Assembly: GCF_037095755.1 (NCBI RefSeq) | Contig: NZ_JBAWKJ010000001.1 | Span: forward strand, 2,297,001-2,361,000 | Reading direction: 5' to 3' | DNA: 64,000 nt | Source of the DNA: Sphingopyxis sp. CCNWLW2 | GTDB lineage: Bacteria > Pseudomonadota > Alphaproteobacteria > Sphingomonadales > Sphingomonadaceae | Shown: positions 35,168 to 51,276 of the stretch, one piece after another | Position numbering within the stretch: position 1 is the stretch's first letter | How the letters are laid out: each line of letters starts with the position of its first letter | Position numbers and translations under genes: made by a program | Notes under the pieces: generated by a model | Seen by the model: only the letters and a program-made list of their open reading frames with translations | Databases searched by the model: none | What the model was told of the DNA's origin: nothing

Positions 35168-35178
35168 AGGAGCCCCGC

Positions 35179-36222
35179 ATGACCAGTCCCGCCGCCGATA
35201 TCGCGCGCCGCCTCGCTGAAAACGCCGAGGCGGTGTGCCGCCGTTATCTGTCCAACGGCCGCCGCGAAGGCCATTACTGGATGGTCGGCAACGTCCGTAA
35301 TGAACCGGGCCGCAGTCTCTATGTGCGGCTGGAAGGCCATGGCGACGGCGGCGGCGCGGCCGGCAAATGGACCGATGCTGCGAGCGGCGATCATGGCGAC
35401 CTCCTCGACATCATTTCGGCGTCATGCGGCCACGCGTCCTTCCGCGACACGATCGGGGAAGCGCGGCGGTTTCTCAGCCTTCCGCCGCCGTCCGAGGCGC
35501 CCCGGAATCCGACGACACCGAAGGCCTCGACGGGAACGCCCGAGGCTGCGCGCAGGCTGTGGGCGGCCTCGAAGCCATTGGCGGGAAGCCTTGCACAGAT
35601 CTATCTTGCAAGGCGATCGATCGACCATGTCTCCGCGGCCGATCCGCTCCGGTTTCATGCCCATTGCTTCTATCGCGCCTCGCGCGACGATCCGCCGGGC
35701 GGGCCGGCGGCCTGGCCGGCGATGATCGCGGCGGCGACCGATTTGGCGGGCACGGTGACCGCGGTGCATCGGACCTGGCTCGACCCGAAGACGAACACCA
35801 AGGCCCCGGTCGCCTATCCGCGCCGCGCGATGGGGCGGCTTCTGGGCCACGGTGTCCGCTTCGGCCGAGCGGGATCGGTGATGGCGGCCGGCGAGGGCAT
35901 CGAGACAATCCTTTCGTTGCGACAGGTGCTGCCCGCGCTTCCCATGATCGCAGGCCTGTCGGGCGCGCATCTCGCGGCGCTCCTGTTTCCGGAAGTGTTG
36001 AAGCGGCTTTATGTCGCGCAGGACGACGATCCCGCGGGCGCGGCGGCGCTGGCAACGCTTCGCGTGCGGGCGTCCGAGGCCCGCGTCGAGGTCGTCGCCC
36101 TCCGACCCGGCCGTGACGATTTCAATGCCGACTTGAGGCGGATCGGAGCGGGCGGGCTCGCTCGAACCCTCGCGTCGCAGCTCGGCGCGGCCGATCGCCA
36201 GCAGTTTCTTCGAGGGGCTTGA
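35179..36222 (+). CDS. Toprim-domain protein, primase-like
   Basis: This 347-residue protein starts at 35179 (GAAGGAG upstream). The N-terminal part contains HYWMVGNVRNEPGRSLYVRL and GKWTDAASGDHGDLLDI, as in plasmid primase-like proteins. The C-terminal toprim domain has GEGIET (Glu239) and the acidic LYVAQDDDPAG. Toprim proteins make or cut nucleic-acid strands; here it may act as an accessory primase for element replication or transfer. It follows the helicase gene by 12 bp. No CHC2 zinc finger of the DnaG type is visible. Confidence 0.82.
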   Translation: MTSPAADIARRLAENAEAVCRRYLSNGRREGHYWMVGNVRNEPGRSLYVRLEGHGDGGGAAGKWTDAASGDHGDLLDIISASCGHASFRDTIGEARRFLSLPPPSEAPRNPTTPKASTGTPEAARRLWAASKPLAGSLAQIYLARRSIDHVSAADPLRFHAHCFYRASRDDPPGGPAAWPAMIAAATDLAGTVTAVHRTWLDPKTNTKAPVAYPRRAMGRLLGHGVRFGRAGSVMAAGEGIETILSLRQVLPALPMIAGLSGAHLAALLFPEVLKRLYVAQDDDPAGAAALATLRVRASEARVEVVALRPGRDDFNADLRRIGAGGLARTLASQLGAADRQQFLRGA

Positions 36223-36534
36223 GGCGGGCTGGAAAGCGGGAGGGTCAGGCGGGCGGCTTCGCTCGCTCCTGATAACCGTCCTGCGGGGCCGCGCCGCGGC
36301 CTTCGGGGGAGGGCGACTGCGGCAGGCGGTGCGGGACAGCAATGGCTGCCGTGCGGCTATTTTCCGCCGGGGCCTGCGGCCCCTTTGCATCGCGAAGCAA
36401 AATAGCCTTCGTGCGCCATCCTCCGCTCGCGCTCCGGTCGCGGCGGGACGCCGCGATGCGGTCCCGTACCGCCTGCCGCAAGGGGTCGCCGCGAAGGCCG
36501 CGCGGGGCGCGGCTGCGACAGACGGAGACCGACG
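36223..36534. other. Non-coding GC-rich gap with large folded structure
   Basis: These 312 bases carry no convincing gene. They are occupied by the nested inverted repeat listed for 36283-36517, which ends 18 bp before the DUF2493 start. Confidence 0.65.
36283..36517. repeat. Large nested inverted repeat, candidate origin or structured RNA
   Basis: Two imperfectly complementary arms (36283-36337 and 36461-36517) share a 19-bp core with one mismatch: GCGGCAGGCGGTGCGGGAC at 36319 against 36461-36479. They also share outer blocks GGCGAC and GCGGCCTTCG. The 123-bp middle has its own hairpin: GCTATTTT (36356) pairs with AAAATAGC (36399) around GGGGCC-tgc-GGCCCC. No gene is convincing here. Position between the primase-like and DUF2493 genes fits a replication or transfer origin, or a structured leader RNA. 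Confidence 0.6.
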
Positions 36535-37470
36535 ATGCACGACCTGAGCGAAGCCACCCACCCGGCATCCGCCGAACCTGGAACCACCGCCTATCTGCTC
36601 CAGGAAATGCAGTTGTTCGGTCACCGGCCCTACGAAGACGAACCCGATCCGCGGCCGCTTCCCGACGCGCGTCTCACTGGCGGCGCGATCGCCGACATGT
36701 TCGATGCGCTGGCAGGCTGTATCGCCGAGACCCGGATCGAACCCGATCTCGATGACCTCCTCTGGAACCTGGTCAACATCTTCCACCGTGCCGGTGAACG
36801 CGTCGAAAGATCCCTCGACGACAACGAGCAGCTCCAGCGCCGCCTCCAGCGCGAACAGGATGGCAGCGAAATCCGCTCGGTCGAGCTCGAGCGGGCAACC
36901 CGCGAGGGCATCTCGTTGATCGAACGCCGCGACGCTATGGAGTTTTTCCGCGAAGCGGCGGCCGAGCAGTTCCGGCTGCTCCTCCGCAAGGCCTGGGCTC
37001 CGCGCACAGGGTCGCGAATCCAGCATCGTGCGATGACGGCATCGCTGATCGACAGCCGCGATTTCCTCGACGCCCGGCTCCGGCAAAAGGCAACGGCTCT
37101 GCTTCCCGTCGGCACGCGGATTGCCTTCACTGGCGGCAGCGATTGCAGCGACCATGCGGCCATCTGGGAGGCTCTCGACAAGGCGAAGGCCCGCTACGCC
37201 GACATGATCCTCCTCCACGGCGCCACGCCGACCGGCGCCGAACGCGCCGCGGCTTGCTGGGCCGACAGCCGCGGCGTGGCGCAAGTCGCCTTCCGTCCGG
37301 ACTGGAATCGCCACGGCAAAGCGGCGCCCTTCAAGCGCAACGACCGGATGCTCGAGGCGCTCCCGGTCGGCCTCATCATCTTCCCGGGCACCGGCATCCA
37401 GGACAATCTCGCCGACAAGGCTGCGAAGATCGGCATTCCGCTCTGGGACTTCCGAAAAGGGTCGGGCTGA
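36535..37470 (+). CDS. DUF2493 (SLOG-like) mobile-element protein
   Basis: This 311-residue protein ends in a Rossmann-like DUF2493 domain: RIAFTGGSDCSDHAAIWEAL, ILLHGATPTGAERAAACWA, VAFRPDWNRHGKAAPFKRND and VGLIIFPGTGIQDNLADKA. The SLOG superfamily binds nucleotides or sugar-phosphate ligands, and this branch is common on alphaproteobacterial plasmids beside ParB-like and toprim genes. The N-terminal 170 residues are helical and unassigned. It closes the mobile module; the structured repeat lies directly upstream. Confidence 0.85.
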   Translation: MHDLSEATHPASAEPGTTAYLLQEMQLFGHRPYEDEPDPRPLPDARLTGGAIADMFDALAGCIAETRIEPDLDDLLWNLVNIFHRAGERVERSLDDNEQLQRRLQREQDGSEIRSVELERATREGISLIERRDAMEFFREAAAEQFRLLLRKAWAPRTGSRIQHRAMTASLIDSRDFLDARLRQKATALLPVGTRIAFTGGSDCSDHAAIWEALDKAKARYADMILLHGATPTGAERAAACWADSRGVAQVAFRPDWNRHGKAAPFKRNDRMLEALPVGLIIFPGTGIQDNLADKAAKIGIPLWDFRKGSG

Positions 37471-37523
37471 AGCGCCGAGATTGGGCGACTCCGGGAAATG
37501 TCCTCAATCTGGTTCTATCTCTC

Positions 37524-37544
37524 GAATATAATTGAAATATATTC
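37524..37544. promoter_or_regulatory. AT-rich inverted repeat upstream of LuxR gene
   Basis: GAATATA and TATATTC are separated by 7 bases in an AT-rich stretch about 50 bp before the luxR start. It could overlap the promoter or an operator. Support is positional only. Confidence 0.35.
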
Positions 37545-37591
37545 CGAACTTGCACATTTTCCCGCCCTCCTGATCACTCGGACCAGTGGTG

Positions 37592-38446
37592 ATGTCTTCG
37601 CCTTCCGGCGCCCAATTGAGGGGCGCGGCCGGTCGGCGTTTGACGGAGGCAATGCCGGATGCTTCGGCTTGGCGACGATCGCCGGCGCTGCCATGGTTGA
37701 ATATGTTGCCACTCGGCGCTGCGCATGCGCTCGCGATCGACGTCATGACGGTGAAGGACGAGGCGGCGCTTGCCGACCTTTTTCATGAGGTCTGCGCCAG
37801 CCTCGGCTGTCGCTTCTTCGCACTCAGCCACCATGTCGATTTCCTGGCAGACCCGCAGCGCGGGATACGGATCCACAATTATCCCGAAGAATGGGCATGC
37901 TGGTTCGACGCGCAGGGGCTCGGCTTGACCGATCCGATCCACCGGGCAAGCCAGCGGACGTCCGCCCCCTTTCTGTGGAACCAGGCGCCTTTATGGGCGC
38001 CGCCGCGCCCCGGAGATGAAAGCGTACTCGCGGAGGCCCGGCGTCATGGCATTGCTGATGGGCTCACCATTCCCGCTCACCTGCCCGGCGATGCCCATGG
38101 ATCGGTGTCCTTCGCGTGGCGCGAGGGTGGGCCCGATCTGGGCGACTTGCCGCTCGCCGGGATGATCGGGCCCTTCGCCTTCGAGGCGGCCCGTCAGATC
38201 GCCGGCCGGGTGCCCGAGGCCAACCGGCCGAAGCTGACCGACCGGCAGCGTGACTGTCTCCTCTGGATTGCGCGCGGCAAATCGGACTGGGTGACCTCGA
38301 GGTTGCTCAATCTGAGCCAGGATACGGTTGCCGAGCATGTCAAAAACGCGCGGGGACGCTATGATGCTCCGACGAGGATGGCGCTCATGATCCGCGCGTT
38401 ATGGGATGGCACGATAACTTTCGGCGAAATCGCCAACAATCGATGA
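37592..38446 (+). CDS. LuxR-family quorum-sensing regulator
   Basis: This protein of about 284 residues has an N-terminal autoinducer-binding domain (HNYPEEWACWFDAQGLGLTDPIH, typical of acyl-homoserine-lactone receptors) and a C-terminal GerE-type helix-turn-helix (KLTDRQRDCLLWIARGKSDWVTSRLLNLSQDTVAEHVKNA). The ATG at 37592 is the first in frame; GTG codons just before it and an ATG at 37652 are alternatives. The companion luxI lies 1.2 kb downstream, separated by a minus-strand gene. It should sense the signal made by that synthase and may also affect the lasso-peptide genes, which is an inference from adjacency. Confidence 0.88.
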   Translation: MSSPSGAQLRGAAGRRLTEAMPDASAWRRSPALPWLNMLPLGAAHALAIDVMTVKDEAALADLFHEVCASLGCRFFALSHHVDFLADPQRGIRIHNYPEEWACWFDAQGLGLTDPIHRASQRTSAPFLWNQAPLWAPPRPGDESVLAEARRHGIADGLTIPAHLPGDAHGSVSFAWREGGPDLGDLPLAGMIGPFAFEAARQIAGRVPEANRPKLTDRQRDCLLWIARGKSDWVTSRLLNLSQDTVAEHVKNARGRYDAPTRMALMIRALWDGTITFGEIANNR

Positions 38447-38508
38447 AGTGCGACATGGTTTTCACTCGCTGTTCTAGGGAACTCACGGTGTCGGCGCAGC
38501 CTGCGAGC

Positions 38509-39540
38509 TTATGCGGGGTGTCCGTCGGCAGGAGGCGAGGGGATATCGGGCGGTTCGACAGGAACGCTCTCCAACGCGTCCGCTCTGCCTCGGAGCCAGA
38601 TTCTGGCCTGATCTTCGAACCGCGCCGCATCAACGCGCATGCACAGCAGGCATTTCCCGACTTCATACCCGCTGCCGCATAGGACATCGCTGCGGCAGGA
38701 ACCTTCAGCGCATGGCTCGCGAAGAACGTCATAAACGACGGCACAGACCGGACAGAACAACTGGTCGCTGTCCGGAGTGGTAAGCTGTGCGAAGCGAGAG
38801 GGATCCTTCCAGTCCTTCTCGTCGGTCGAGCAACTCAGGCAGATATAGGAACGGCGCCGTTTGTCGTAACCAAAATGCCGGCGCACCATTGCTGGCGGCA
38901 GCACCTTGGCAACAATTGCAAAGCTGGCGAGCAGGCCTGCCTCGGCTCCTTGGCCATGCGCGATCGCGACCGGGTCATTGAGTGCGGCATCCATCAGGTA
39001 GCGCGCCCAGCGGTGTTGGGGGAACAGGCTCTCGACCGTCTCGAGGACACCGACAAATATGCCTGTCGCGTCGGCGGCCACGCCGCGGCCGCCCAGATGA
39101 ACAATCTTGTTCCGGCTTCGCCGCGCCTCGTCGAACTTTCGGATGAAGTCGGGCGGCAGTGTTTGATTGCAGACCGTGTCGTGGACCCGAATAAGGTCAC
39201 TCGCGTCGATCGTGCGAAAGTCGTTGAACTCGATCTCGCCATTCGGCCCAGGTCGCGGCCATGACCTCGGATCACCGGCAAGAAGAATGTAAGGGCTGAT
39301 TGCCGCGATGTTTGCCTTGAGGCCCAGCTCCTGCGCCTGATGGACCCAGACATGTGCATGCCTGAGCGCGGGCTGTTGTGCGGCATGATAGTCGGCAAGG
39401 GCGCTGCCGTCGGTGTCCCATATCTCGATCTCCGAGTCTTCAAGCAGCGCAAAGGTAGCGACGGCCGCTTCCCACGCCATGACGAGCAGCTCGATGGCCG
39501 AACTGCGCAGCTCCTCCGCCGTTGGGATGTTCCTGATCAT
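38509..39540 (-). CDS. Protein with HEPN-like motif and Cys-rich C-terminus, unknown
   Basis: This 343-residue protein is not assigned to a known family by me. The middle contains RRSRNKIVHLGG, where R-N-x3-H matches the HEPN ribonuclease motif. The last 110 residues hold paired cysteines (CLSC, CPVC, CAEGSC, KCLLC) that look like one or two zinc ribbons. The start at 39540 gives a sensible N-terminus (MIRNIPTAEELRSSAIELL), but its ribosome-binding site is weak. It sits between luxR and luxI on the opposite strand and is divergent from luxI. A stress or defence RNase is possible; the HEPN call is an inference from one motif. Confidence 0.65.
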   Translation of the reverse strand: MIRNIPTAEELRSSAIELLVMAWEAAVATFALLEDSEIEIWDTDGSALADYHAAQQPALRHAHVWVHQAQELGLKANIAAISPYILLAGDPRSWPRPGPNGEIEFNDFRTIDASDLIRVHDTVCNQTLPPDFIRKFDEARRSRNKIVHLGGRGVAADATGIFVGVLETVESLFPQHRWARYLMDAALNDPVAIAHGQGAEAGLLASFAIVAKVLPPAMVRRHFGYDKRRRSYICLSCSTDEKDWKDPSRFAQLTTPDSDQLFCPVCAVVYDVLREPCAEGSCRSDVLCGSGYEVGKCLLCMRVDAARFEDQARIWLRGRADALESVPVEPPDIPSPPADGHPA

Positions 39541-39627
39541 GCACCATCCATAGCGAGTTCCCGTCCGACGAACACCCGGCGACACCCCCCAATTCTGGTA
39601 TGGCGAGGTGGCCGCTTACGCTTCAAT

Positions 39628-39660
39628 TGGACTGTCTCTATTTTCACGGGAGACAGTCCA
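39628..39660 (+). promoter_or_regulatory. Hairpin covering the luxI ribosome-binding site and start
   Basis: TGGACTGTCTC (39628-39638) is perfectly complementary to GAGACAGTCCA (39650-39660), with an 11-nt loop. The 3' arm contains part of the GGGAGA ribosome-binding site and the A of the ATG. In mRNA it would block translation unless melted or bound. It might also act as a DNA operator (lux-box-like palindrome), though the arms are longer and wider apart than usual. Confidence 0.65.
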
Positions 39661-40277
39661 TGCTTCACGTTGTCGATTACACCAACCGGGTGCGCCTGCA
39701 CGCCGTCCTCCGCTCCATGTTCGCAGCACGCAAGAAGGTCTTCATCGATCTTCTGAAATGGGATGTGCCGGCGCTCGCCGGCGAATTCGAGGTCGATCAT
39801 TTCGACACCCCGCAGGCGACCTATCTCGTCGTCGCTGACGAAAACGATAGCCATCTCGCATCGGCCCGGCTGCTCGAGACCACCGAGCCCGGCATTCTCG
39901 ATGGCCTGTTCGCGCATCTCGCAGACGAGCCCCTGCCGCGCGGCGATGATGTCTTCGAAATCACACGCTTCTGCCTTTCGCCCGACGCGGGCGCGCGGAG
40001 GCGGCGCGAAGCACGCAACACTTTGCTCATAGGCCTCGCCGAATATGCGATCGCCAACGACATTCGCACCTACACCGGGGTCGCCGAGCGGTCCTGGTTC
40101 CGCCAGGTCCAGTCCTTCGGCTGGGCATGCCGGGCGCTCGGAGCGCCGCGCGGCGAGGGCGATCGTGCGCTCGTCGCCCTTAGAATCGATATCGACGACA
40201 CGACCCTCGCGGGCATGGCGGCCGCGGGAATCTCTTCGTCGGCCGCGATCGGCAGCGCGCCCGCGCGCGCGGCCTGA
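39660..40277 (+). CDS. LuxI-type acyl-homoserine-lactone synthase
   Basis: This 205-residue autoinducer synthase has the family segments ARKKVFIDLLKWDVP, EFEVDHFDTPQATYLVVAD, ASARLLETTEPGIL and DVFEITRFCLSP. These contain the conserved Arg, Phe, Trp, Asp and Glu/Arg positions of LuxI enzymes. It makes an N-acyl-homoserine lactone from S-adenosylmethionine and acyl-ACP in the cytoplasm. The start at 39660 follows GGGAGA; the frame extends to 39600 without homology. It is followed 14 bp later by phyH, the arrangement commonly reported in Sphingomonadaceae. The acyl chain length cannot be predicted. Confidence 0.9.
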   Translation: MLHVVDYTNRVRLHAVLRSMFAARKKVFIDLLKWDVPALAGEFEVDHFDTPQATYLVVADENDSHLASARLLETTEPGILDGLFAHLADEPLPRGDDVFEITRFCLSPDAGARRRREARNTLLIGLAEYAIANDIRTYTGVAERSWFRQVQSFGWACRALGAPRGEGDRALVALRIDIDDTTLAGMAAAGISSSAAIGSAPARAA

Positions 40278-40291
40278 AGGGGGGAACGATC

Positions 40292-41188
40292 ATGCTGACC
40301 GAAACCATGATACCCTGCCAGTCGGCGGCGCAAGCCGAGCTGAGGGAGCAGGGGTTCACGATTGTCCGAGGGGCAATTCCGGCGACCGACATCGCCGCGC
40401 TCGAACGCGACCTGGCGCCGCGCTTTGACGCGACCCCTTTTTGCGAAGGCGGCTTTTACGGCGAGCGCACCAAGCGCTTCGGCCGCCTGCTACTGCGCTC
40501 GCCGCGCGCGACCGACCTCGTGATGCATCCCACCATTCTCGCCATGGCGGAGGCGGTCCTGCTCCCATGGTGCGACCGGATCCAGCTCAACCTCACCCAG
40601 GCGATCGAAATCCACCCGGGTGCGCTCGCGCAATATCCGCACCGCGACCAAAGTATGTGGCAGGGGACCATCGGCGAGACCGAATATCTCGTCAACGTCA
40701 TGTGGCCGCTCACGCCGTTCACCGCAGATAATGGCGCAACGCTGATCTGGCCGCGCAGCCATGGTCTCGAGGCGCTCGTCGAGGAGCCGCCCGAACCGGC
40801 GGTGGTGGCGGAAGCGGAACCCGGCGATGCGATCATCTTTCTCGGATCGACGCTTCACGGCGCCGGCGCGAACCGGAGCGCAGAGGTGCGGCGCGGCATC
40901 ATCGTCAGTTACAGCCTCGGCTGGCTCAAACCCTATGAGAATCAACATTTGGCCTATCCGCCCTATGTCGCCTGCGATTTTCCGCCCGAGCTCGCCGCGC
41001 TCGCCGGCTATGCCCAGCACCGCCCGAACCTCGGCAATTTCGAGGGCCAATGCCCTTCGATCCTGCTCACAGGCTATCCCGAGGAACCGCTTTCCGCAAT
41101 CGATGCGCTCCGCCCGGATCAGGCCGCGTTGCTCGCCGAGCATGTCGCCGCGCAGCGCGCTTCGCTTGACGAAGTACGCGCGCCATGA
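40292..41188 (+). CDS. Phytanoyl-CoA dioxygenase (PhyH) family protein
   Basis: This 298-residue Fe(II)/2-oxoglutarate dioxygenase has the iron-binding HRD (QYPHRDQSMW), a distal His in STLHGAGANRS and a probable 2-oxoglutarate Arg in EVRRGIIVSYS. GGGGGG-rich sequence precedes the ATG. Its constant position next to luxI in sphingomonads suggests a link to the signal molecule or its precursors, but no such reaction is proven to my knowledge. Its stop overlaps the GntR start (ATGA), so it is co-transcribed with luxI and the regulator. Confidence 0.85.
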   Translation: MLTETMIPCQSAAQAELREQGFTIVRGAIPATDIAALERDLAPRFDATPFCEGGFYGERTKRFGRLLLRSPRATDLVMHPTILAMAEAVLLPWCDRIQLNLTQAIEIHPGALAQYPHRDQSMWQGTIGETEYLVNVMWPLTPFTADNGATLIWPRSHGLEALVEEPPEPAVVAEAEPGDAIIFLGSTLHGAGANRSAEVRRGIIVSYSLGWLKPYENQHLAYPPYVACDFPPELAALAGYAQHRPNLGNFEGQCPSILLTGYPEEPLSAIDALRPDQAALLAEHVAAQRASLDEVRAP

Positions 41189-41808
41189 GCCCCGGCGCCA
41201 CCATGGAACGGGTCTATATCGACCTCAAGGTCCGGCTCATGACCGGCGCCTATCCGCCGGGCACACGGCTCGACCCCCGGCAGATCGCGCGGACGCTCGA
41301 CGCCAGCGCCACGCCGGTGCGCGATGCGCTCCACCGCTTGTCCGGCGAGCGCATCGTCGATGCCTGGCACCAGGAGGGCTTTCGCCAGCCGCTGCTCGCC
41401 GAGGCCGACCTCGCCGAACTCTATGACTGGGGCGGCATGCTCCTCGCGCTCGCGCTCAAGGGGCGAAGCCCGTCGCCAAACCTCCGGGCGGGCCTCAGCG
41501 AATTGCAAGCGATAGAGCCCTATCCAGAGGCGCTCGATTCGCTGTTCGGGGTGATCGCAGTGGGAAGCGCAAATCGCGAACTTCGCTACGCGATCGTCAA
41601 CTTCATCGAGCGAAGCCGCGCTTTTCGGCCCGCTGAGATGCGGATCGACCCCGCCTCGCGCACGGTGCTCGCCGCGATGGAGGAGGACTATCGGTTCGGG
41701 CGATGGACCGGATTGCGCAGCAAAATCACCAGCTTCCATCGCCGCCGGATGCGGCAGGCGGGGCGGATCGCGGCCGCCATTCGGCCGCGCAGCGACCCTC
41801 TTCGATAA
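41185..41808 (+). CDS. GntR-family transcriptional regulator
   Basis: This 207-residue protein has a winged-helix GntR domain in its first 75 residues (VYIDLKVRLMTGAYPPGTRLDPRQIARTLDASATPVRDALHRLSGERIV) and a helical C-terminal domain shorter than the usual FCD domain. It is coupled to phyH by an ATGA overlap; an alternative start is the Met seven codons in. It lies 97 bp upstream of the lasso precursor gene and could control that promoter or tie it to the quorum-sensing operon. Its ligand is unknown. Confidence 0.85.
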   Translation: MSPGATMERVYIDLKVRLMTGAYPPGTRLDPRQIARTLDASATPVRDALHRLSGERIVDAWHQEGFRQPLLAEADLAELYDWGGMLLALALKGRSPSPNLRAGLSELQAIEPYPEALDSLFGVIAVGSANRELRYAIVNFIERSRAFRPAEMRIDPASRTVLAAMEEDYRFGRWTGLRSKITSFHRRRMRQAGRIAAAIRPRSDPLR

Positions 41809-41905
41809 CATTCGGGCTATAGCAGAAGTATAAAATTCCTATTCTAAATCAGGGGCGTAGCTTTGTGGTTGCCGCAATCCCGCGGCATCAACCAAGGAGG
41901 GTCCC

Positions 41906-42043
41906 ATGGACCGGAACAGCATCGCCGAAGAAGGCATCGAAGAACTCGGAATCGCCAGCGTCGAGACGCGCGGCGAGGAATTCCCGGTGCCGGAAATCGG
42001 CGGCCATGACCTGAAACTCGGCGGCGGCATTTCCGCTGACTGA
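41906..42043 (+). CDS. Lasso peptide precursor (45 residues)
   Basis: This short gene has a strong AAGGAGGG ribosome-binding site at the usual distance. The leader (22 residues, beginning MDRNSIAEEGIEELG) ends in IASVETR, matching the conserved leader end of sphingomonad and caulobacter lasso precursors with Thr at the penultimate position. Cleavage before Gly gives a 23-residue core that starts GEEFPVPEIGGH and ends GGGISAD. Gly1 can form the macrolactam with Glu8, the only acidic residue at positions 7-9, giving an 8-residue ring. The tail end resembles astexin-2 and sphingopyxin I. The peptidase and cyclase genes follow directly. I do not recognise this core as a described peptide. Confidence 0.9.
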   Translation: MDRNSIAEEGIEELGIASVETRGEEFPVPEIGGHDLKLGGGISAD

Positions 42044-42053
42044 CAGGCGAAGG

Positions 42054-42081
42054 GGCACGGCCGCCTCGGCGCGGCCGTGCC
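42054..42081 (+). promoter_or_regulatory. Stem-loop between lasso precursor and processing genes
   Basis: A perfect 11-bp stem (GGCACGGCCGC/GCGGCCGTGCC) with a 6-nt loop lies 10 bp after the precursor stop. There is no T-tract. Hairpins here are known in related lasso clusters and are thought to raise the level of precursor mRNA relative to the enzymes, by attenuation or 3'-end protection. Confidence 0.75.
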
Positions 42082-42089
42082 TAGCGTCG

Positions 42090-42770
42090 ATGAACCATCA
42101 CCTTGCACCGGATATGAGCTTTTGCTTCATTGGCGCTGGCGCGGTCATGCTGGACCTCAAGGCTGACCGCTACTACCGGCTCGATCGCCGCCATTCGGCT
42201 GCGCTGCGAGCGATGGCCGGCGGCGAGTGCAATGCGCATCTGGACGCGCGTGCGTCCCTCGTCGCCAAGGGGCTCATTCGGCCGGGCGACGGACCGGCTG
42301 CGACGCCGGTTAGCGCGCCACGCGTCACCGCGAGTGTCATTGAGCGTCGGCTTTCCTGGCGACCCGAGACACAGAATTGTTCGATATCGCCCTTGGAGCT
42401 TTTCGCGCTCCGCTTCATGGCCGGGCAGGTACTTGGGCGGCTGGGACTATTTCGGACCGCGAGATATTATCGGGGGCGGCGGGATCGCTGCCACGAGCAG
42501 CAAGGCGGTTTGCAACGCAGCCAGGATCGCGCCGCTGCACTAGCCGCCTGCTTTGCCGACCAGCGGCGCTTTTTCCCCGCAAAGCGGCGCTGCGTGCCGG
42601 ACTCGCTCGCTCTTGCCGCAATCCTGTGGCGGCGAGGGTGCGCTGCGGAGGTGTTTTTCGGTGTGCGGCTGGACCCGTTTGCCGCCCATTGCTGGGTCCA
42701 GCACGGGGCGCTCTTGCTCTCGGATCCGCTCGACAGTGTGGCCGAGTTCACACCGGTTTTTCAATTATGA
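42090..42770 (+). CDS. Lasso peptide B protein: recognition domain plus leader peptidase
   Basis: This 226-residue protein has an N-terminal PqqD-like leader-recognition domain (about residues 1-80: CFIGAGAVMLDLKADRYYRLDRRHSAALRA). The C-terminal transglutaminase-like cysteine protease has Cys168 (RRCVPDSLALAAIL), His200 (FAAHCWVQ) and Asp212 (LLSDPLD). It binds the leader and cuts it before Gly1 of the core. Single-chain B proteins of this size are the rule in proteobacterial lasso clusters. It overlaps the cyclase gene by an ATGA junction. Confidence 0.92.
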   Translation: MNHHLAPDMSFCFIGAGAVMLDLKADRYYRLDRRHSAALRAMAGGECNAHLDARASLVAKGLIRPGDGPAATPVSAPRVTASVIERRLSWRPETQNCSISPLELFALRFMAGQVLGRLGLFRTARYYRGRRDRCHEQQGGLQRSQDRAAALAACFADQRRFFPAKRRCVPDSLALAAILWRRGCAAEVFFGVRLDPFAAHCWVQHGALLLSDPLDSVAEFTPVFQL

Positions 42771-44464
42771 GTATCCATGTTGTCCTCGTGCAAAGGCCCG
42801 ACGCGCTGGAGCCTCTACCGCCGTCCGTGGCCCGACTGGGCATGCTGGGGACCATGCAGATTCTGGGGGCTCCCGACACACCCATTCTTGCGCGCGACGG
42901 CCTCATTTTGCTGGGCTGGGCATTCCACCGCGACAGTCTGAGGCCGCTCAAGCACCTCGACGAGGGAGCCGCCGCACGAATCACGGAGGAGGGGCATCCA
43001 TGGGTATACCGGCATCTCTGGGGCAACTTCTTTCTAGTCTGGCATGACCGCCATGGCGTTCCCAGGCTGCTGCGTTCGCCTCCCGCCGGGCAGGCGATCT
43101 ACTATGAGGCGGGAACGGGCGCTCAATCCGAACCCGGCGATATTATCGCCTTCACGGATCTCGGTCTGGCTCGTGCGCTTGGCCTTCGACCACTTCGGCC
43201 TGATCCCGCCGCGCTCGATTCTCACATCCGCTTCCCGTTGATGCGCGGCCCGCACACCGGAATTGCGGGAATGAGGGAGCTGCTTCCGGGAGAGGCGATC
43301 GACCTCAAGACACGCACGCTTTTGCCCGGAGCGTGGACGCCATGGTCGCAAGTTCCAGGTTCGCCTCGCCGCATTATGCCGGCAGAGCTCAGGGCATGTG
43401 TGGAGGGCGTGGTCGGCAGCTGGGCAGACCGCTTCGCGCGAATCCAGCTCGAATTGTCGGGCGGTCTCGACAGCTCGATCGTCGCGGCGTGCCTTCAGGA
43501 TCGCATGGCGTCGTGGCGCGCCGTCAATCTCGCAACGCCTGGAATACCGGGCGACGAGCGGGATTACGCGCGCGCCTCCGCAGCACACGTCGGGACGTCG
43601 CTAGCCGAGATCGTGATGCCCGACGAGGAGACGGACCCGCTCGCGCCCATTCCCATTCCTCGCGCGCGTCCCGGTGGATTCGGGCTGCTCGGGTCCAGCG
43701 ACGAGGCTCTGCTTGCCGCCGCCCGAGATTTCGGCGCCGACGCCATTTTCACCGGTGTCGGGGGCGATAACGTCTTCGGATACATTCGGAAGGCGGGGCC
43801 AGTGGCGGATGCGCTGCGGTTCGCTGGCTTCGGCGCGGCATGGCGAGCAGCGAGCGATTTGGCGACAATGACGGGCGATAGCGTATGGCGTGCGCTGAGG
43901 TTGGCACTCTTGCAGCTGGTGCGGGCGCCGCGGCTGTGGCCCCGCGATCCCACCTTGCTGACGACGAGATATGATCGCGATGCCCCGGACCATCCCTGGC
44001 TCACGATACCGCCGGGCATCGCACCGGGGCAGTTCGGATATGGCCGGGCGCTGATGCCGATCCAGTTGTTTGTCGATGGCTATGATCGGTCGTTCGCGAT
44101 GCCAATGATTGCACCACTGCTTTCCCAGCCGATCGTGGAGCTGGGGCTGCAGGGCGCAAGTTGGGATTGGTGCGCCGGCGGCCACGACCGGGCTCTTGCC
44201 CGGTCGGCTTTTGCGGATCGCCTGGCTCCGATGGTGCGCGATCGACGAACAAAGGGCCGTGTCGAATCTCTTTTCGTCACCACCTACAACCGCCGACGCG
44301 GATCAATCCGGGAATTTCTCCTCGATGGCTATCTCGCGAGTGCGGGCATCATCGATCGTGATGCCGTCGATGCAGCGCTGAAGCCACCCGCCGACGCGCT
44401 CGACGCCGTCTATATCCGCCTCCTGCAGATTACCGACGTCGAGCGCTGGATCCGTTCTCTCTGA
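42767..44464 (+). CDS. Lasso macrolactam synthetase (asparagine synthase-like)
   Basis: This 565-residue enzyme is homologous to class B asparagine synthetase. The PP-loop for ATP is S231-GGLDSS, and a downstream GVGGDNVFGY segment belongs to the synthetase domain. The N-terminal glutaminase-like region lacks the Cys at position 2, as expected for lasso cyclases that do not use glutamine. It adenylates the ring-forming side chain (inferred Glu8) and joins it to the Gly1 amine. The start at 42767 overlaps the peptidase stop. No ABC exporter gene follows, which is usual for isopeptidase-class clusters. Confidence 0.92.
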   Translation: MSIHVVLVQRPDALEPLPPSVARLGMLGTMQILGAPDTPILARDGLILLGWAFHRDSLRPLKHLDEGAAARITEEGHPWVYRHLWGNFFLVWHDRHGVPRLLRSPPAGQAIYYEAGTGAQSEPGDIIAFTDLGLARALGLRPLRPDPAALDSHIRFPLMRGPHTGIAGMRELLPGEAIDLKTRTLLPGAWTPWSQVPGSPRRIMPAELRACVEGVVGSWADRFARIQLELSGGLDSSIVAACLQDRMASWRAVNLATPGIPGDERDYARASAAHVGTSLAEIVMPDEETDPLAPIPIPRARPGGFGLLGSSDEALLAAARDFGADAIFTGVGGDNVFGYIRKAGPVADALRFAGFGAAWRAASDLATMTGDSVWRALRLALLQLVRAPRLWPRDPTLLTTRYDRDAPDHPWLTIPPGIAPGQFGYGRALMPIQLFVDGYDRSFAMPMIAPLLSQPIVELGLQGASWDWCAGGHDRALARSAFADRLAPMVRDRRTKGRVESLFVTTYNRRRGSIREFLLDGYLASAGIIDRDAVDAALKPPADALDAVYIRLLQITDVERWIRSL

Positions 44465-44510
44465 GCCCACACGGGGACCAGGCAAGGAGCATACGGACCG
44501 CGAGAGATGG

Positions 44511-46508
44511 TTATGAAGCAATATGCTTCTGCGCGGCCCGATAGCCTCGCCAGCGGCGGTATTGATCGGCCTTGGCGGGATCGGGGTCCTCCTCGCCCTT
44601 AAGCCAGAAGCGGTACCAGTCCAGATTGCGACGGTAGACGGCGAGTTTGTGAACTGGCTGCTTCTTGATGTGCGGCTCGTCGGCAAAAGCATAGAAATCA
44701 ACCGCCTTGCCCGCACGCTTCATGCGCGTGTGAAGCTCCGCGACATGACGAGCCTCGACCTCGGGGAGTTGCATGAGCAACGGCGTGTCGATGGACGCGA
44801 CGTCATACACGGCCGAGAGGTCGCGCCATTGTTGCGGGTCGCTGTCGGGGTCACCGATTTTCCAATAGTCCTTCAGCATCTCGGCAAAGCCACGATCCGG
44901 GAGGGCGTTCGCCCAGAAATAGGACGGCGTCATCTGGCTCGACGCGATCGTTGCGGCGGCAAATCGGTTCGACTTTCGTATCGCGAAGAGCGTGACTTCC
45001 GAGCCGAAGCTCAAACCGCCTATGCCGACGCGCGCCGGGTCGATGATGCCCTTTCGGGCAAGCTGATCGAGAGCTGTCTCGATGTCCGAAAGAGCCAGCC
45101 GGTAACTTTCTCCCGTGCCGGCCTCCTTTTCCGCCCGCACCCGGTCCATGCACAAGACTGCAATGCCATGTTCCACGAGCGGCAGTATCGGGATCTCGTC
45201 GCCGACGCCGCCCTTCAGAAAGCCCGAGCAACGATAATATTGGACGACGAGCGGGAGCGGCACCGTCGTGTTGGATGGGCGCAACAATATGCCGGTTACA
45301 CCGCGCTCCCATGCCAGCGGGGTTGCGTGAGCTTCTATTCGTGCTCGCAGCTCCGCGTTCGGCTCGGCAAGACGCTTGCGCTGACCGTCGTAACCCAGCC
45401 GGGCAATATGTGGCGGTGCGACCGGTCCCGCATCCGCGCAGAACAGGGCCTCGGCACCGATGGCGCATCGCGGCATGTGGGCCGATGACCGGGTCGCGCC
45501 ATCGGTGATGATAGCGGCGCGCGCGCTCGAGGAGCCGACGCGCCAGAGCCACACCGTCTCGCGCGCGCTACCGGTCCGCTCGAAGAGGAGGAGCTCGTCG
45601 CGTCCCGGGCGCCATGCCAGCGCCGTCACTTGTGAACTCCGGCATATTGGTGCGGTGCAATCGATCCGTTGCCCACTGGTGCGCATCACATGAACACCGG
45701 CAACGCCCGGCGCTGCGAGTTTCGCGGTGCTTCCGTCTTCGGCGGTGACGGACGCGCCCTGTGCCGGCGCGGATTTTGCGAAGACCTGCGGCGCACCCTC
45801 GTTCGAAGACGGCGCACCATCTGGTTCGACGACGATCTCTCGTTGGGGTGTGTCGTACAATATACGCTCTCGGCCGAACCAGGCCGAGGGCAGTCGCTGC
45901 ATGATGCGCTTGCCGCCCTCGATCGTCCCGCCCGCGACCGGCTCCATGAGATCGAGATGACGATCCACAAGAGCGCCATTCTCATAGGCGTCGCGCTCGG
46001 CCTGCGCGATCTGTGATCTTGTAGCGCCGACCGAGTAGCGAACGGCGCGCCCGTCCGTCGAAACCTCGAAACCCAGAATGTCGGCCGCATCGACGATCTC
46101 GCGCCGGGCGGGCGAGCCGTTACGCCAGTGCCAGATCGCGACGCCCTCGCGGTCAAGAGCGCGAAACCGCAACCCCAGCGAATCTTTGTCCCAGATCGGC
46201 AGTTGCTCCAACAGCGTTCCCGCGCCACCATGCTGGGCCATGCCACTACCGATCCGGATCGCAGGCGTTTTGCCGCCGACGTCGACTACGAACCAGTCGA
46301 GCATTGTTTCATTTTTCTCAATCGACGGACGACTGACGCGGTACGCTAGTTTCTGGCCGTCAGGCGAGAGGCTGACGCCGCTGATATCCGCAACCTCGAC
46401 CAGGTCCTGGGTGGACACTGGACGTCGTTGGCGCGGCGGAGCGATCCTGTCGGGAGGTATCGAGGGGGTCGCCATCGCGGCCGCGGCAAGCAGCCAAGCC
46501 GTTACCAC
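44511..46508 (-). CDS. Lasso peptide isopeptidase (AtxE2-like, prolyl-oligopeptidase fold)
   Basis: This 665-residue protein has a short hydrophobic N-terminus, an N-terminal beta-propeller and a C-terminal alpha/beta hydrolase domain. The nucleophile is Ser500 (GGLSFGSE), and His613 lies in FADEPHIKK. Glu583 in LPEVEARH is the likely third triad member: known AtxE2 uses a Glu in this place, and the Ser-Glu spacing of 83 agrees with what I recall for it. The enzyme opens the ring isopeptide of its cognate lasso peptide, linearising it. A GTG start at 46508 overlaps the receptor stop; Met at 46475 is the alternative. It faces the biosynthetic genes, convergent with the cyclase. Confidence 0.9.
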   Translation of the reverse strand: MVTAWLLAAAAMATPSIPPDRIAPPRQRRPVSTQDLVEVADISGVSLSPDGQKLAYRVSRPSIEKNETMLDWFVVDVGGKTPAIRIGSGMAQHGGAGTLLEQLPIWDKDSLGLRFRALDREGVAIWHWRNGSPARREIVDAADILGFEVSTDGRAVRYSVGATRSQIAQAERDAYENGALVDRHLDLMEPVAGGTIEGGKRIMQRLPSAWFGRERILYDTPQREIVVEPDGAPSSNEGAPQVFAKSAPAQGASVTAEDGSTAKLAAPGVAGVHVMRTSGQRIDCTAPICRSSQVTALAWRPGRDELLLFERTGSARETVWLWRVGSSSARAAIITDGATRSSAHMPRCAIGAEALFCADAGPVAPPHIARLGYDGQRKRLAEPNAELRARIEAHATPLAWERGVTGILLRPSNTTVPLPLVVQYYRCSGFLKGGVGDEIPILPLVEHGIAVLCMDRVRAEKEAGTGESYRLALSDIETALDQLARKGIIDPARVGIGGLSFGSEVTLFAIRKSNRFAAATIASSQMTPSYFWANALPDRGFAEMLKDYWKIGDPDSDPQQWRDLSAVYDVASIDTPLLMQLPEVEARHVAELHTRMKRAGKAVDFYAFADEPHIKKQPVHKLAVYRRNLDWYRFWLKGEEDPDPAKADQYRRWRGYRAAQKHIAS

Positions 46509-49426
46509 GACACAACCGCCTGCAGCGAAAGCATACGCCCGACTGCACTCGCTTGCTCCGGATCATATCCGAATACCGAATTGCTGCTGACGAAGCGCGC
46601 ATAGGGCGGATCGCGGTCAAAAACATTGGTGATGCCCGCCGTCAGGCGGAGCGCGCGTCCTGGCCCAACCTCGGAGATGCGCACGCCGAGCTGGATGTCG
46701 AATGTGGTCCAGCTCTTCACCTTCTCGGCGGGGGTGACTGTTAGATTGCGATAAGCGGCGACATGATTGACCGCGACGCCGCCATCGAAGGCGCCAAGAT
46801 TGACGCCTACCCGGCCCCGGAGGCGTAGTTTGACCGGATTGCCAAGTGTCCCGAGGACATTGATCGCCGGGGCCCGGTCCGTGATCTGGCTTCTGAAGCC
46901 GAGCATCCGCGTCCCACCGACGGTGAAGCTCAGGCTGCCATCGGGAAGAGCCCGGGTGTAGCTTGCGTCGAAATCCAGACCGCTGACCTTTGCGCGCGAC
47001 AGGTTGAGCGTGCGTCCATCGATGATCGCGGCAATGTCGGCCTGTGTCACACCGAGCGGGTTGGAAAAGCTTGGACTCGAGAAATAGGCAGCGATCTCGG
47101 CGGCGTCGGGAGCGTCGTCGACAATGCCGCCATAGATATCCCGGCGAACCAGGAAGTTCTGAACATCGGCGGAAGCGCTCGCGATCCGGTCGCGGTAGCT
47201 GATGTCGAACCATGTCGCGCTCAGTTTCGTGCCGGGCGCGAATGCGGGCTCGATGTCGACGCCGGCGGTCCAGCTCGTTGCCTTTTCCGGCCCGAGGTCA
47301 GGCCGGAATCCGAACAGCCCCAGCACAACCGACTGGCCCGTGGGCGAGTTTGGATCGGGCAATCGCAGCGGTTGGTAGAGTGCGTTGGCGGACCCGACGA
47401 GCTCGGTGAAATAAGGAGCGCGGAAGGACCGGCCATAGGAGGCGCGGAAGGACAGGCCGCCAAGCGGCGTCCAGCGTAGGCCGAATTTGGGGTTGGCCGT
47501 GTCTCCGACGTCGGAATAATCTTCATACCGCGCCGCAGCCGAAAGCATGAGCGCGCCGGGGAGTGCACTGCCTGCGTCGAAGACCGGTATCGCGACTTCC
47601 CCATAGATCGATTTGACGATGCGTTTGTCGGGAAGCCCCGGGATGGGGGAAGAGACCGGCATGTCCGATGTGACATCGACGAACGCCTGGTAGCGCAAGC
47701 GATCACGTCGGTATTCTGCGCCGATCGCGGCTTTGACCTGGCCGGCGGGAAGATCGAAGATCGGGCCATCGGCACGGACGGCCGAAGATAGCACCTCGTA
47801 GCGAACGTTCCGGCACTGTCCGCCCCGCAGGCTGTCGATGAGATTGCGGTCATTGACCAGGCCGTCACCGAAAACGTTGATCGCGGACGCGGGGCTCGTG
47901 GCCGCGAGCGCGCGCGACAGCTTGAGGCGGTTGACGACATTAACGCCTTCGTCGCGTTCGCGCTGCAAGCCATAGCCGCCGGACAATTCGACGGACCATG
48001 GGCCGAGCGTGGCGCGCCCGCCGAAGCTGAGATTGAAGGCGCGCGCGACGCCCTTGGTGCCTTCCGGGCCAAATTCGGCCGACGGATCATAATAGACCGT
48101 GATGGGCTGGCCCGTGCCGATGGGATCGACATAATAGGGGTTCGCGCTGGTAACGCGGAGCGGCTGCGGCCCAAACAGCCGCCGCCGAACTTCAAAATGT
48201 CGCTCGGCGAAAAGGGCGCGAGCGAAGATGTTGATGTTATCGGATAGGTCCTGCTCGAGGGCGGCGTAGAGGCTGACTGTCTCTTGCTCCGGAAGAATGT
48301 CGATGTTTCGCCTCGCGTCGCCGCGATTGAAGCCCGGAACGAGGAGTTGCGCGGGCGTGAGCGCGGTCCCGTCCTGTCCCCGCGGGATCGCGAAGACCTG
48401 CCCGTTGGCCGCCACGATCGTGCCGGGATTGTTGTAGTTCGAGCGGAGGTCCGGGCCGCCGAAAGGTCTGAGATCCTCGGTCGCGAACGCTCGCTTCGAA
48501 GAGCCGAGGTTATTGCGCCGGTAATATTCGCCCGCCACCGTCAGATGTCCGCCCTTCCAGCCGAAACCGGCGATCTGGCTCGCCTGCACTTCGCCGAAAT
48601 CGCCGTCCGCCGTGCCAAGCCGCAGGCGGCTCTCCAGACCTTCGAAGTTGTTCCGGAAGCGGATGTTGACGACGCCCGCGATCGCATCGGATCCATAGAT
48701 GGCCGAGGCTCCGTCGGTGAGAATCTCGATGCGTTCGATCGCGACGGACGGGACGAGCGAGAGATCGGTGAATGCGCCGGCGCCGCCTCCGAGGGCGGGA
48801 CGTGCCCCATCGAACAGGGTCAGCGTCGACCCGCTGCCGAGACCGCGCAGGTTGATCCCGGAACCGAAGCCGAGATTGGTGCCCGCGTTTCCCCGCGCGG
48901 TCGAGCCCGTGACGGCTTCGGTAGGACCGCCGGAAAAATTCTGCGGGATGGTCTGGATGAAATCGGCAAGGGTGGTTCGCCCGCTTTGCTCGAGCGCCTC
49001 GCGGTCGACGATGGTAACCGGCGAGCCGACCGGACCTGTGCCCCGAATGCGGGTCCCCGTCACCACGATCGCCTCACTTGCCGTCTCAGTCGATCCCTCC
49101 GCGTCCGCAACGACGTTTCCCTCCCGGATCACGAGCGCGCCATCGACGACCTCGGCGATCAGGCCGGTGCCGGAAAGCAGGCGGGTGAGGGCGGCGTCGG
49201 GGGAGAGGCGGCCCCGGACGCTGCCGCTGCGCTTACCTTCGGTCAGGCTGCCCGAGAAGACGACCTCGCGGCCCGATATCTCGGAATATTCGCGCAGCGC
49301 GTCGCCGAGGCGCTGGGGCGCGATGTCGTAGCTGCGCTGTTCGGTCATCGCATGCGCCGTCGGCGCATAAAGTGCGGTCGGCGCCGCGGTCGTGGCCAGC
49401 ATGGCGGCCAGATATTTCATTCGCAT
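46502..49426 (-). CDS. TonB-dependent receptor with N-terminal signalling domain
   Basis: This 974-residue receptor has a signal peptide (RMKYLAAMLATTAAPTALYAPTAHA), then a secretin/STN signalling domain (RSYDIAPQRLGDALREYSEISGREVVFSGSL), a TonB box region (EAIVVTGTRIRGTG), a plug with Asn/Gly-rich loops and a barrel. The STN domain, together with the FecR and ECF sigma genes just upstream, forms a cell-surface signalling system. It probably imports or senses the lasso peptide and induces itself and the isopeptidase. The start at 49426 follows GGGAGGGT. It overlaps the isopeptidase start by 7 bp. Confidence 0.92.
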   Translation of the reverse strand: MRMKYLAAMLATTAAPTALYAPTAHAMTEQRSYDIAPQRLGDALREYSEISGREVVFSGSLTEGKRSGSVRGRLSPDAALTRLLSGTGLIAEVVDGALVIREGNVVADAEGSTETASEAIVVTGTRIRGTGPVGSPVTIVDREALEQSGRTTLADFIQTIPQNFSGGPTEAVTGSTARGNAGTNLGFGSGINLRGLGSGSTLTLFDGARPALGGGAGAFTDLSLVPSVAIERIEILTDGASAIYGSDAIAGVVNIRFRNNFEGLESRLRLGTADGDFGEVQASQIAGFGWKGGHLTVAGEYYRRNNLGSSKRAFATEDLRPFGGPDLRSNYNNPGTIVAANGQVFAIPRGQDGTALTPAQLLVPGFNRGDARRNIDILPEQETVSLYAALEQDLSDNINIFARALFAERHFEVRRRLFGPQPLRVTSANPYYVDPIGTGQPITVYYDPSAEFGPEGTKGVARAFNLSFGGRATLGPWSVELSGGYGLQRERDEGVNVVNRLKLSRALAATSPASAINVFGDGLVNDRNLIDSLRGGQCRNVRYEVLSSAVRADGPIFDLPAGQVKAAIGAEYRRDRLRYQAFVDVTSDMPVSSPIPGLPDKRIVKSIYGEVAIPVFDAGSALPGALMLSAAARYEDYSDVGDTANPKFGLRWTPLGGLSFRASYGRSFRAPYFTELVGSANALYQPLRLPDPNSPTGQSVVLGLFGFRPDLGPEKATSWTAGVDIEPAFAPGTKLSATWFDISYRDRIASASADVQNFLVRRDIYGGIVDDAPDAAEIAAYFSSPSFSNPLGVTQADIAAIIDGRTLNLSRAKVSGLDFDASYTRALPDGSLSFTVGGTRMLGFRSQITDRAPAINVLGTLGNPVKLRLRGRVGVNLGAFDGGVAVNHVAAYRNLTVTPAEKVKSWTTFDIQLGVRISEVGPGRALRLTAGITNVFDRDPPYARFVSSNSVFGYDPEQASAVGRMLSLQAVVSW

Positions 49427-49508
49427 TCTTACCCTCCCGGTCGCGGCCGTGATGGCCGTCCGGGAGTGCAAAATGCCGGAGTTGGAAATTCTCCCCGGCG
49501 ATCGCCGA

Positions 49509-50417: not shown

Positions 50418-50992
50418 CGCTGCGTGTCTCGTGCCTTGCGGATTGCGGTAACGGCCTTGCTGATGAGCTTTTCCACGCGCTTCACACCTATGCCTTTGAT
50501 TCGAGCAATTTCAGCATAACTGAGATTTTCGACGCGGTGCATAAGGAATACATCCCGTGTGGTTGGATCTACGCGGGCCAGGGCCTCTTCGGCGCGCCGG
50601 AGCATATCGCGCGCTTCGAGCACATGGTGCGGATCGGGACCGGCGACGTCATGCTCGTCGAAGCTGTGGTGCGCCGCGTGCTGGCGGCGCGCGCCGGTGC
50701 GTGCCCTTTCTTTCAGGAGGGTGCGCGCGGTCTGCGCGAGATAGGCGCCGGGCTTGTCGCCGATGCTGAAATAGCCTTTCGCGGAGATGAAACGGCGAAT
50801 GCTTTCCTGGACGAGGTCGGCAACATCCTGCGGATGTGCGTTGCGGCGGAAGAAGCCCGCGAGGCGAGGGCGCTGCTCGGCGAGGATCGCCTCGGTTCGG
50901 GCGTGGCGTTGAAACCCGTCCCAATCGTCGGGCGGCAGCGGATCGGCGGCATTGTGGCCGCGTCTGCCTTCATGTTCGTCGTCATAGTCCAT
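50414..50992 (-). CDS. ECF sigma factor of the lasso receptor system
   Basis: This 192-residue protein has region 2 (RPRLAGFFRRNAHPQDVADLVQESIRRFI) and region 4 (ARVDPTTRDVFLMHRVENLSYAEIARIKGIGVKRVEKLISKAVTAI), the FecI pattern. The start at 50992 (MDYDDEHEGRRG) was chosen because the frame upstream to 51136 is low-complexity; GGAAGG is present upstream. It heads the minus-strand operon sigma-fecR-receptor-isopeptidase and should recruit polymerase to the receptor promoter. Confidence 0.9.
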   Translation of the reverse strand: MDYDDEHEGRRGHNAADPLPPDDWDGFQRHARTEAILAEQRPRLAGFFRRNAHPQDVADLVQESIRRFISAKGYFSIGDKPGAYLAQTARTLLKERARTGARRQHAAHHSFDEHDVAGPDPHHVLEARDMLRRAEEALARVDPTTRDVFLMHRVENLSYAEIARIKGIGVKRVEKLISKAVTAIRKARDTQR

Positions 50993-51276
50993 GCGCCGCG
51001 CCTTCCCGTCCGGGCAAGGAGGGCGCGAAGCCGGGTGTTGAGTCTCGCTTGACGACGAGGCCGCAACCTTTGGCCCGAAGGCTTGGACATGCGTCACGGC
51101 CACCCGGCAGGGATGGCGCAAATCTATCAGCGTCAAGCGGGCGTCTCAATTCCCGGCATCGTGCTTCTCACACCCGATGCGGGAGGAAGCATAGCCTGCC
51201 GCTACGGCAGGGCAAGAGTCTGACAGGAGATTGGTCCAGATTGAATCTTGTTGTCGACTGCCCGACGGGCTCGCGG

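Follow-up and report, generated by a model that had tools for sequence, protein, structure and literature searches.

A predicted Glu8 lasso peptide of Sphingopyxis and the frequent linkage of its kind to AHL signaling genes

This study analyzed a stretch of DNA from Sphingopyxis sp. CCNWLW2 (64,000 nt; NZ_JBAWKJ010000001.1, positions 2,297,001 to 2,361,000, forward strand), hereafter called the window, and compared the lasso peptide locus that it carries with related loci. The results show frequent coupling of lasso peptides of this kind to AHL signaling genes within the genus, and often across the family as well; what was observed directly is the genes and the conservation of their physical linkage. 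On balance, and by a modest degree, we favor the reading that the locus specifies a class II-type lasso peptide of the isopeptidase-containing sphingomonad group, the production of which would be AHL-gated through LuxR and GntR and followed by re-uptake of the peptide.

The precursor gene and its core

The lasso precursor gene A occupies positions 41906–42043 on the forward strand, and a Shine-Dalgarno-like AAGGAGG stands 5′ of its ATG. The translation comprises 45 aa, divided into a leader of 22 aa and a core of 23 aa (MDRNSIAEEGIEELGIASVETR / GEEFPVPEIGGHDLKLGGGISAD). The junction, ETR/GEEF, places Thr at position −2 and Gly at core position 1, and Glu8 is the only Asp or Glu at core positions 7, 8, or 9. 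The predicted product is a Gly1-Glu8 macrolactam with an 8-residue ring and a 15-residue tail, for which a monoisotopic mass of 2275.112 was calculated. The precursor scored 32.9 bits against the Pfam Subterisin model PF24178 (cut-off 27), which argues that the ORF is more than a chance occurrence; its score against the Benenodin family model NCBIfam NF033522 was 28.2 bits, below the cut-off of 33. These results bear out the initial annotation, which had placed a lasso precursor here and described a 23-residue core with Glu8 as the sole acid within ring range. The two following genes, B and C, gave lasso B2 and Asn-synthase family matches.

The same annotation had singled out the Gly1-Glu8 ring as a standout feature and had stated that ring closure in sphingomonad lasso peptides is mostly on Asp8 or Asp9. 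We took a census of 55 distinct Gly-starting cores from the window and its relatives, using the loci where the leader filter gave a precursor; it gave none in L096, L115, L131, and L132, and the L096 precursor, seen separately as L057, also carries Glu8. The general statement held for the family as a whole, in which 18 of the 55 cores had Glu8 (with Asp9 as a possible alternative in 3 of the 18) and the rest had Asp8, Asp9, or similar. It did not hold for the clade of the peptide itself, for which the census ruled out Glu8 as an unusual trait. Glu8 was present in each of the 16 distinct cores that came from fetched genus loci with the gene order of the window, and also in the subterisin-type core of L133. 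The genome of the window also contains a second complete lasso locus (G000, contig C3:772371–772499; L081), the core of which, GTEFPVPESIGRKLEPDAGISVD, again has Glu8; its gene order is that of the window, and it possesses its own LuxR, LuxI, PhyH, and GntR. In the protein database, 11 precursor homologues were found, with Thr(−2) and Glu8 in all 11 and Gly1 in 10, the exception being P0010 (on a 516-base contig), which has Arg at this place. Because Glu8 is kept in the homologues and in the genus cores of the same gene order, its prediction as the ring residue, and as the normal one in the clade of this peptide, is well supported at the level of sequence.

The core had further been described as unmatched to any described peptide. 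This stood as far as the literature and structures were concerned: the ring string GEEFPVPE gave no match in the texts of 5.39 million open-access papers, although supplementary genome-mining lists could contain the core, and no PDB chain matched the precursor. An identical precursor occurs in another species of the genus (G441; L040, the same place as L082). Gene A encodes a new core that belongs to a known and ordinary-looking kind of peptide, and the peptide alone would offer little beyond one further core sequence.

Organization of the locus

Four genes upstream of gene A lie on its strand and point toward it. The LuxR-type AHL receptor and regulator (37586–38446) scored 95.9 bits against PF03472 (cut-off 23) and 32.5 bits against PF00196 (cut-off 23.5), with CviR, LasR, and SdiA as its closest solved relatives. 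The LuxI-type AHL synthase (39600–40277; PF00765, 87.5 bits, cut-off 24) has AHL synthases as its closest solved relatives, and both members of this LuxI/LuxR system, the synthase and the AHL-binding regulator, are intact in length. They are followed by a PhyH-type Fe(II)/2-oxoglutarate dioxygenase that partners LuxI (40292–41188; PF05721, 90.6 bits, cut-off 22) and by a GntR-type regulator directly 5′ of the precursor gene (41185–41808; PF00392, 48.2 bits, cut-off 27). This LuxR/LuxI/PhyH/GntR cassette, on which the initial annotation of gene A was silent, is the more informative feature.

A gap of approximately 1.15 kb, occupied by an unrelated ORF on the minus strand, divides LuxR from LuxI in the window, whereas the two genes lay within approximately 125 bp of each other in 34 of the 36 relatives measured. 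Local LuxR/LuxI autoregulation could thus be disturbed in the window. The ORF that fills the gap (38509–39585, minus strand) encodes 358 aa, has no Pfam or NCBIfam match, and looks like an insertion. The ORF starts of LuxR and LuxI are approximately 8–9 kb apart in L161 and L164. Beside the cassette, positions 30815–37470 contain genes for a Strawberry-notch-type helicase, a Toprim/DUF7146 protein, and a YspA-type SLOG protein; genes of these types are often found on mobile elements. Elsewhere in the window, two GH106 alpha-L-rhamnosidase-like genes, a GH5 cellulase-like gene, and a TonB receptor gene (4160–7609, minus strand, and 19016–26443, plus strand) are likely to constitute a polysaccharide-use locus, and an HTH gene with an M78 (IrrE-like) peptidase domain is located at 60397–61509 (plus strand).

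Downstream of gene A on the forward strand, the B protein, a leader peptidase (42090–42770), scored 65.2 bits against PF13471 and 61.1 bits against NF033537 (cut-off 33). Its leader-binding PqqD-like match reached 15.9 bits, under the cut-off of 70, and the leader-binding domain is therefore unconfirmed. The C protein, an ATP-dependent macrolactam synthetase (42767–44464), overlaps B at ATGA, matched PF00733 at 68 bits (cut-off 21), and contains an SGGLDSS loop; it reached none of the NCBIfam lasso cyclase models at their cut-offs and gave no PDB sequence match at an E value of 0.001.

The remaining genes are on the opposite strand. The AtxE2-type lasso isopeptidase (44511–46508; NF033523, 511.8 bits, cut-off 400) aligned along its length with AtxE2 (5txc; E value 5.1e-53), and the GxSxG and His regions are conserved between the two. 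Behind it stand a TonB-dependent receptor with an STN signaling domain (46502–49471; PF00593, PF07715, and PF07660), a FecR-type anti-sigma regulator (49509–50417; PF04773, 49.8 bits, cut-off 24), and an ECF sigma factor (50414–51136; PF08281, 47.1 bits, cut-off 25.7; TIGR02937, 61.5 bits, cut-off 42.9). No ABC transporter or exporter was found among the scanned cluster genes. An isopeptidase of the AtxE2 family, a GntR gene before the precursor, and a TonB receptor with sigma and anti-sigma genes after the isopeptidase together give the locus the makeup of an isopeptidase-type cluster. These features bear on the idea that the product is an antibacterial lasso peptide with a Glu8 ring and self-immunity, like microcin J25, which has a Gly1-Glu8 ring of the size predicted here. 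We consider this idea extremely improbable, in view of the presence of the isopeptidase and the lack of an ABC transporter among the scanned genes; moreover, according to the available passages of PMC9266682, the known isopeptidase-type peptides other than astexin-1 have no antimicrobial activity.

The DNA between GntR and gene A contains a candidate promoter/operator (41804–41842, forward strand) composed of two conserved AT-rich blocks, GATAACATTCGG at 41804–41815 and GTATAAAATTCCTAT at 41828–41842. The GTATAAAATTCCTAT block is conserved across genera in an alignment of 25 loci and occurs once in the window at up to 3 mismatches, with a chance mean of 0.13. The GATAACATTCGG block is not specific, with 7 window matches at up to 2 mismatches and a chance mean of 3.0. 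Just 5′ of the ribosome-binding site lies a dyad, TGCCGCAATCCCGCGGCA (41870–41887, forward strand). A perfect 5-bp stem 12–30 nt before the start codon was present in 37 of 55 distinct upstream regions, compared with 10% in shuffles and 16% in slid frames, and the stems vary while staying complementary (GCCGC/GCGGC, GCTGC/GCAGC, and GCGAC/GTCGC). The dyad is a candidate operator or a candidate 5′ hairpin of the mRNA. No structure emerged from consensus-structure folding of the 55 upstream regions, a probable reason being that differing geometries are combined in the alignment. Between A and B, a strong hairpin with a 12-bp stem was predicted at 42053–42082 on the forward strand (−32 kcal/mol and a z value of −3.76 for the 53 nt at 42040–42092).

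No lux box of the form CTG-N10-CAG, a pattern that may not be that of sphingomonad LuxR proteins, was found upstream of A or LuxI (36001–42100), and the sole match to it in that interval is inside luxR. The GAATATA/TATATTC dyad that precedes LuxR in the window was not seen in the upstream stretches of relatives, read by eye. Rfam gave no matches at gathering thresholds in 34000–54000, and a promoter/terminator consensus scan remained at chance level.

Linkage of the cassette with lasso genes

We searched 80 genomes of the window's genus for C, LuxI, and PhyH. The C set comprised 130 of the 133 matches of at least 69 bits among the matches listed, the 3 omitted being second pieces of genes already counted (G401, G444, and G439), and Asn-synthase-like matches below 25 bits were left out of the distance count between C and LuxI. 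LuxI lay 1.7–3.1 kb upstream on the same strand for 53 of the 57 strongest C matches (at least 220 bits). Two of the four exceptions end at a contig end (G441 and G443/L160), with PhyH beginning at base 10 of the contig in G441; the other two (G440, contigs C17 and C88; L159 and L171) are complete lasso loci that include GntR, and no LuxR, LuxI, or PhyH label was seen in the 2.3 and 6.4 kb examined before GntR. Among the 73 weaker C matches (below 220 bits), 32 had a LuxI no more than 15 kb downstream on the opposite strand (mostly at approximately 8.2 kb), 6 had one upstream on the same strand, and 35 had none within 15 kb. Counted from the other side, for 91 of the 127 genus LuxI matches there was a C within 15 kb that had no nearer LuxI.

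As a control, we sampled 149 genomes evenly from across the family. LuxI was present within 15 kb of 14 of the 20 isopeptidases above the cut-off, versus 0.27 expected under random placement. Isopeptidase scoring took in no more than 7 first-look candidates from each genome, and some isopeptidases may be missed. Setting aside the 4 isopeptidases that belong to the genome of the window or to one further genome of its genus left 10 of 16. Of the 62 LuxI matches above the cut-off in this sample, 14 are near such an isopeptidase, which places the majority of them elsewhere. Across 43 loci, LuxI distance correlated with isopeptidase distance (r = 0.71) and with C distance (r = 0.65), and none of 2000 permutations was as high, a correlation that is also expected from shared vertical descent alone.

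We then compared the neighborhoods of 60 fetched loci (L081–L140), the ORFs of which were labeled with profiles built from the window proteins; ten labels were scored (LuxR, LuxI, PhyH, GntR, B, C, isopeptidase, TonB-dependent receptor, FecR, and sigma). The cassette takes three arrangements, namely upstream of A (type 1, that of the window), upstream of sigma-FecR-receptor-isopeptidase (type 2), and divergent from sigma (type 3), and GntR shares the cassette with LuxI in all three. Among the close genus loci (L081–L100), all ten labels were present in 16 of 20, and the cassette always precedes B and C. The incomplete loci are L082 (contig end), L085 (without GntR, FecR, and sigma labels), L092 (cut), and L099 (without FecR and sigma labels). 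The genus loci of the second type (L101–L113) have the cassette upstream of sigma and carried all ten labels in 11 of 13, with PhyH missing in L101 and FecR in L106; in L112 and L113, a second LuxI stands before B. None of the 7 genus loci chosen for the absence of LuxI (L114–L120) carried all ten labels, and 5 of them had GntR. An order with C before B in two fetched loci was judged an artifact of sorting stop-to-stop ORFs by their starts, which may also explain the odd order in L104.

For the family, 20 loci, one per genus, were picked from the Subterisin matches of the family search rather than drawn at random, and 12 of them had all ten labels in the order of the window. Six of the other 8 have the cassette further out (G283, G313, G036, G128, G095, and G007; L161–L164, L166, and L167), divergent from sigma in 4 of the six, and the G007 locus is in fragments. 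G110 has a cassette on its own, at a distance of 22.6 kb from one isopeptidase and 36.2 kb from a second (L170), and the G331 locus is cut by a contig end. In L133, the cassette precedes the A-B-C genes of a subterisin-type core in the gene order of the window.

These arrangements allow the flow of signals to be considered in reverse, with the peptide as the first signal: after re-import through the TonB receptor, it would act through FecR and sigma to turn on the AHL cassette. The type 2 cassette, directly upstream of sigma-FecR-receptor-isopeptidase on the same strand, and the type 3 cassette, divergent from sigma, are consistent with such a flow. We nevertheless regard it as very unlikely, considering that the type 1 cassette, including that of the window, points the same way as A-B-C and lies at a great distance from sigma.

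The members of the cassette differ in their associations. With the 123 stronger PhyH matches used, PhyH was located within 2.5 kb of 118 of the 127 genus LuxI matches, and in the divergent LuxI clade (below 44% identity) the figure was 24 of 25. Ten divergent-clade loci (L141–L150; LuxI at 36%–42% identity) contain LuxR, LuxI, and PhyH but lack GntR, B, C, and isopeptidase; sigma, FecR, or receptor labels are present in some of them. They represent an AHL system that recurs in the genus with PhyH as a near-constant partner. Seven loci with a closer LuxI and no counted C (L151–L157) are mixed: L151 has the cassette with GntR and no lasso genes, L152 the cassette with B, and L155 the cassette followed by sigma and FecR up to the contig end; L154 is at a contig end, and L153, L156, and L157 have LuxI with fewer partners. 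The loci L141–L157 suggest that GntR belongs mainly to the lasso side of the cassette and PhyH to the LuxI side. GntR was labeled in 53 of 61 lasso loci versus none of the 10 divergent LuxI-PhyH loci, and of the four cassette members it is therefore the one linked most closely to the peptide genes.

The association of PhyH with LuxI also bears on the possibility that PhyH is a tailoring enzyme that would hydroxylate the lasso peptide, for example at a ring proline of FPVPE, with LuxI adjacent by chance. PhyH is a 2-oxoglutarate dioxygenase within the cluster, and its HxD and distal His regions align with those of natural-product tailoring enzymes. However, it tracks LuxI rather than the lasso genes, and the passages of Gan 2013 (PMC3704786) available to us place phyH beside luxI in 4 of 5 Novosphingobium pairs. 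Because PhyH follows LuxI where lasso genes are absent, we judge a role as peptide tailor to be unlikely in the extreme.

More serious is the proposal that this is an ordinary isopeptidase-type lasso peptide controlled by GntR and sigma/anti-sigma only, with LuxR-LuxI-PhyH as neighbors that have other targets. It is in keeping with the ten LuxI-PhyH loci that lack lasso genes, with the lasso loci that have GntR and no LuxI (L114, L118, L119, L159, and L171), and with the parts of PMC9266682 at hand, in which GntR, TonB, and sigma/anti-sigma are given as an almost constant context. A linkage kept in three arrangements and far above chance (14 of 20 versus 0.27), with GntR in the cassette of LuxI each time, argues against it, and we hold it to be rather unlikely.

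A proposed circuit and its relation to known systems

The reading that we favor, in which AHL gates the peptide, divides the locus into three putative modules: LuxR-LuxI-PhyH-GntR would provide a cell-density signal, A-B-C would make the peptide, and isopeptidase-TonB receptor-FecR-sigma would serve its uptake, sensing, and linearization. At high density, AHL made by LuxI would activate LuxR and raise expression of the cassette, including GntR. GntR would then act at the conserved AT-rich element before A to switch on A-B-C, a guess from position. B would cut behind Thr(−2)-Arg(−1) and so release the leader of 22 residues, whereas C would activate Glu8 and join it to Gly1; these enzyme steps are predicted from what is established for the two families. 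Once exported by some route, the peptide may be bound by the TonB receptor and, by signaling through STN, FecR, and sigma, raise its own receptor and isopeptidase, the latter of which would open the ring of the imported peptide.

Certain loci count against AHL gating. Within 15 kb, no LuxI was present for 35 of the 130 genus cyclase matches (all below 220 bits), for 4 of the 57 stronger ones, or for 6 of the 20 family isopeptidases. AHL control therefore cannot be universal. The full two-signal circuit, in which AHL made by the cassette switches on a knotted peptide that is re-imported, sensed through FecR-sigma, and untangled by the same population, is put forward tentatively, with slightly more doubt than confidence. 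If it is true, isopeptidase lasso peptides would be density-gated private signals or carriers, and lasso peptides would be a main output of AHL signaling in the genus. The linkage to an AHL synthase provides a testable lead on when these puzzling lasso peptides are made, and lasso clusters become a candidate target for many sphingomonad LuxI/LuxR pairs.

Among the matches listed from open-access full texts, no report of a link between lasso peptides and LuxI in sphingomonads was found. The term "lasso" is absent from the sphingomonad LuxI surveys PMC4288048 (Gan 2015) and PMC11024222, as are "GntR" and "TonB" from the text of PMC3704786. Conversely, "luxI," "LuxR," "quorum," and "homoserine" are absent from the text of the lasso review PMC9266682, and "quorum" and "homoserine" from the 2026 review PMC13352647. 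The luxI-phyH pairs described for Novosphingobium and other sphingomonads resemble the window in that luxI, phyH, and luxR adjoin (PMC3704786 and PMC4288048), and the available passages of the two papers make no mention of lasso genes beside the pairs.

Sphingopyxins I and II, together with the isopeptidase SpI, belong to isopeptidase-type clusters, as does the window peptide (PMC9266682, in the passages available). Three of the fetched loci, L103, L109, and L110, differ from the window in that their cores close on Asp8 or Asp9, unlike the window peptide, and the LuxRI cassette is on the other side, upstream of sigma. The L103 core is presumably that of sphingopyxin II, and we take those of L109 and L110 to be sphingopyxin I-like. 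The astexins of Asticcacaulis excentricus, with AtxE1/AtxE2, close on Asp9, and the window isopeptidase is homologous to AtxE2. Astexin clusters also share with the window the context of a TonB receptor and sigma/anti-sigma genes, according to parts of PMC9266682.

The window precursor passed the model for subterisin (Sphingomonas subterranea; PF24178), a peptide cited in passages of PMC11006600 and PMC9266682. Subterisin and the window peptide differ in their ring and tail sequences. The core of L133 starts with what we take to be the subterisin sequence, and this subterisin-type locus shares with the window the order LuxR-LuxI-PhyH-GntR-A-B-C / isopeptidase-receptor-FecR-sigma, together with Glu8.
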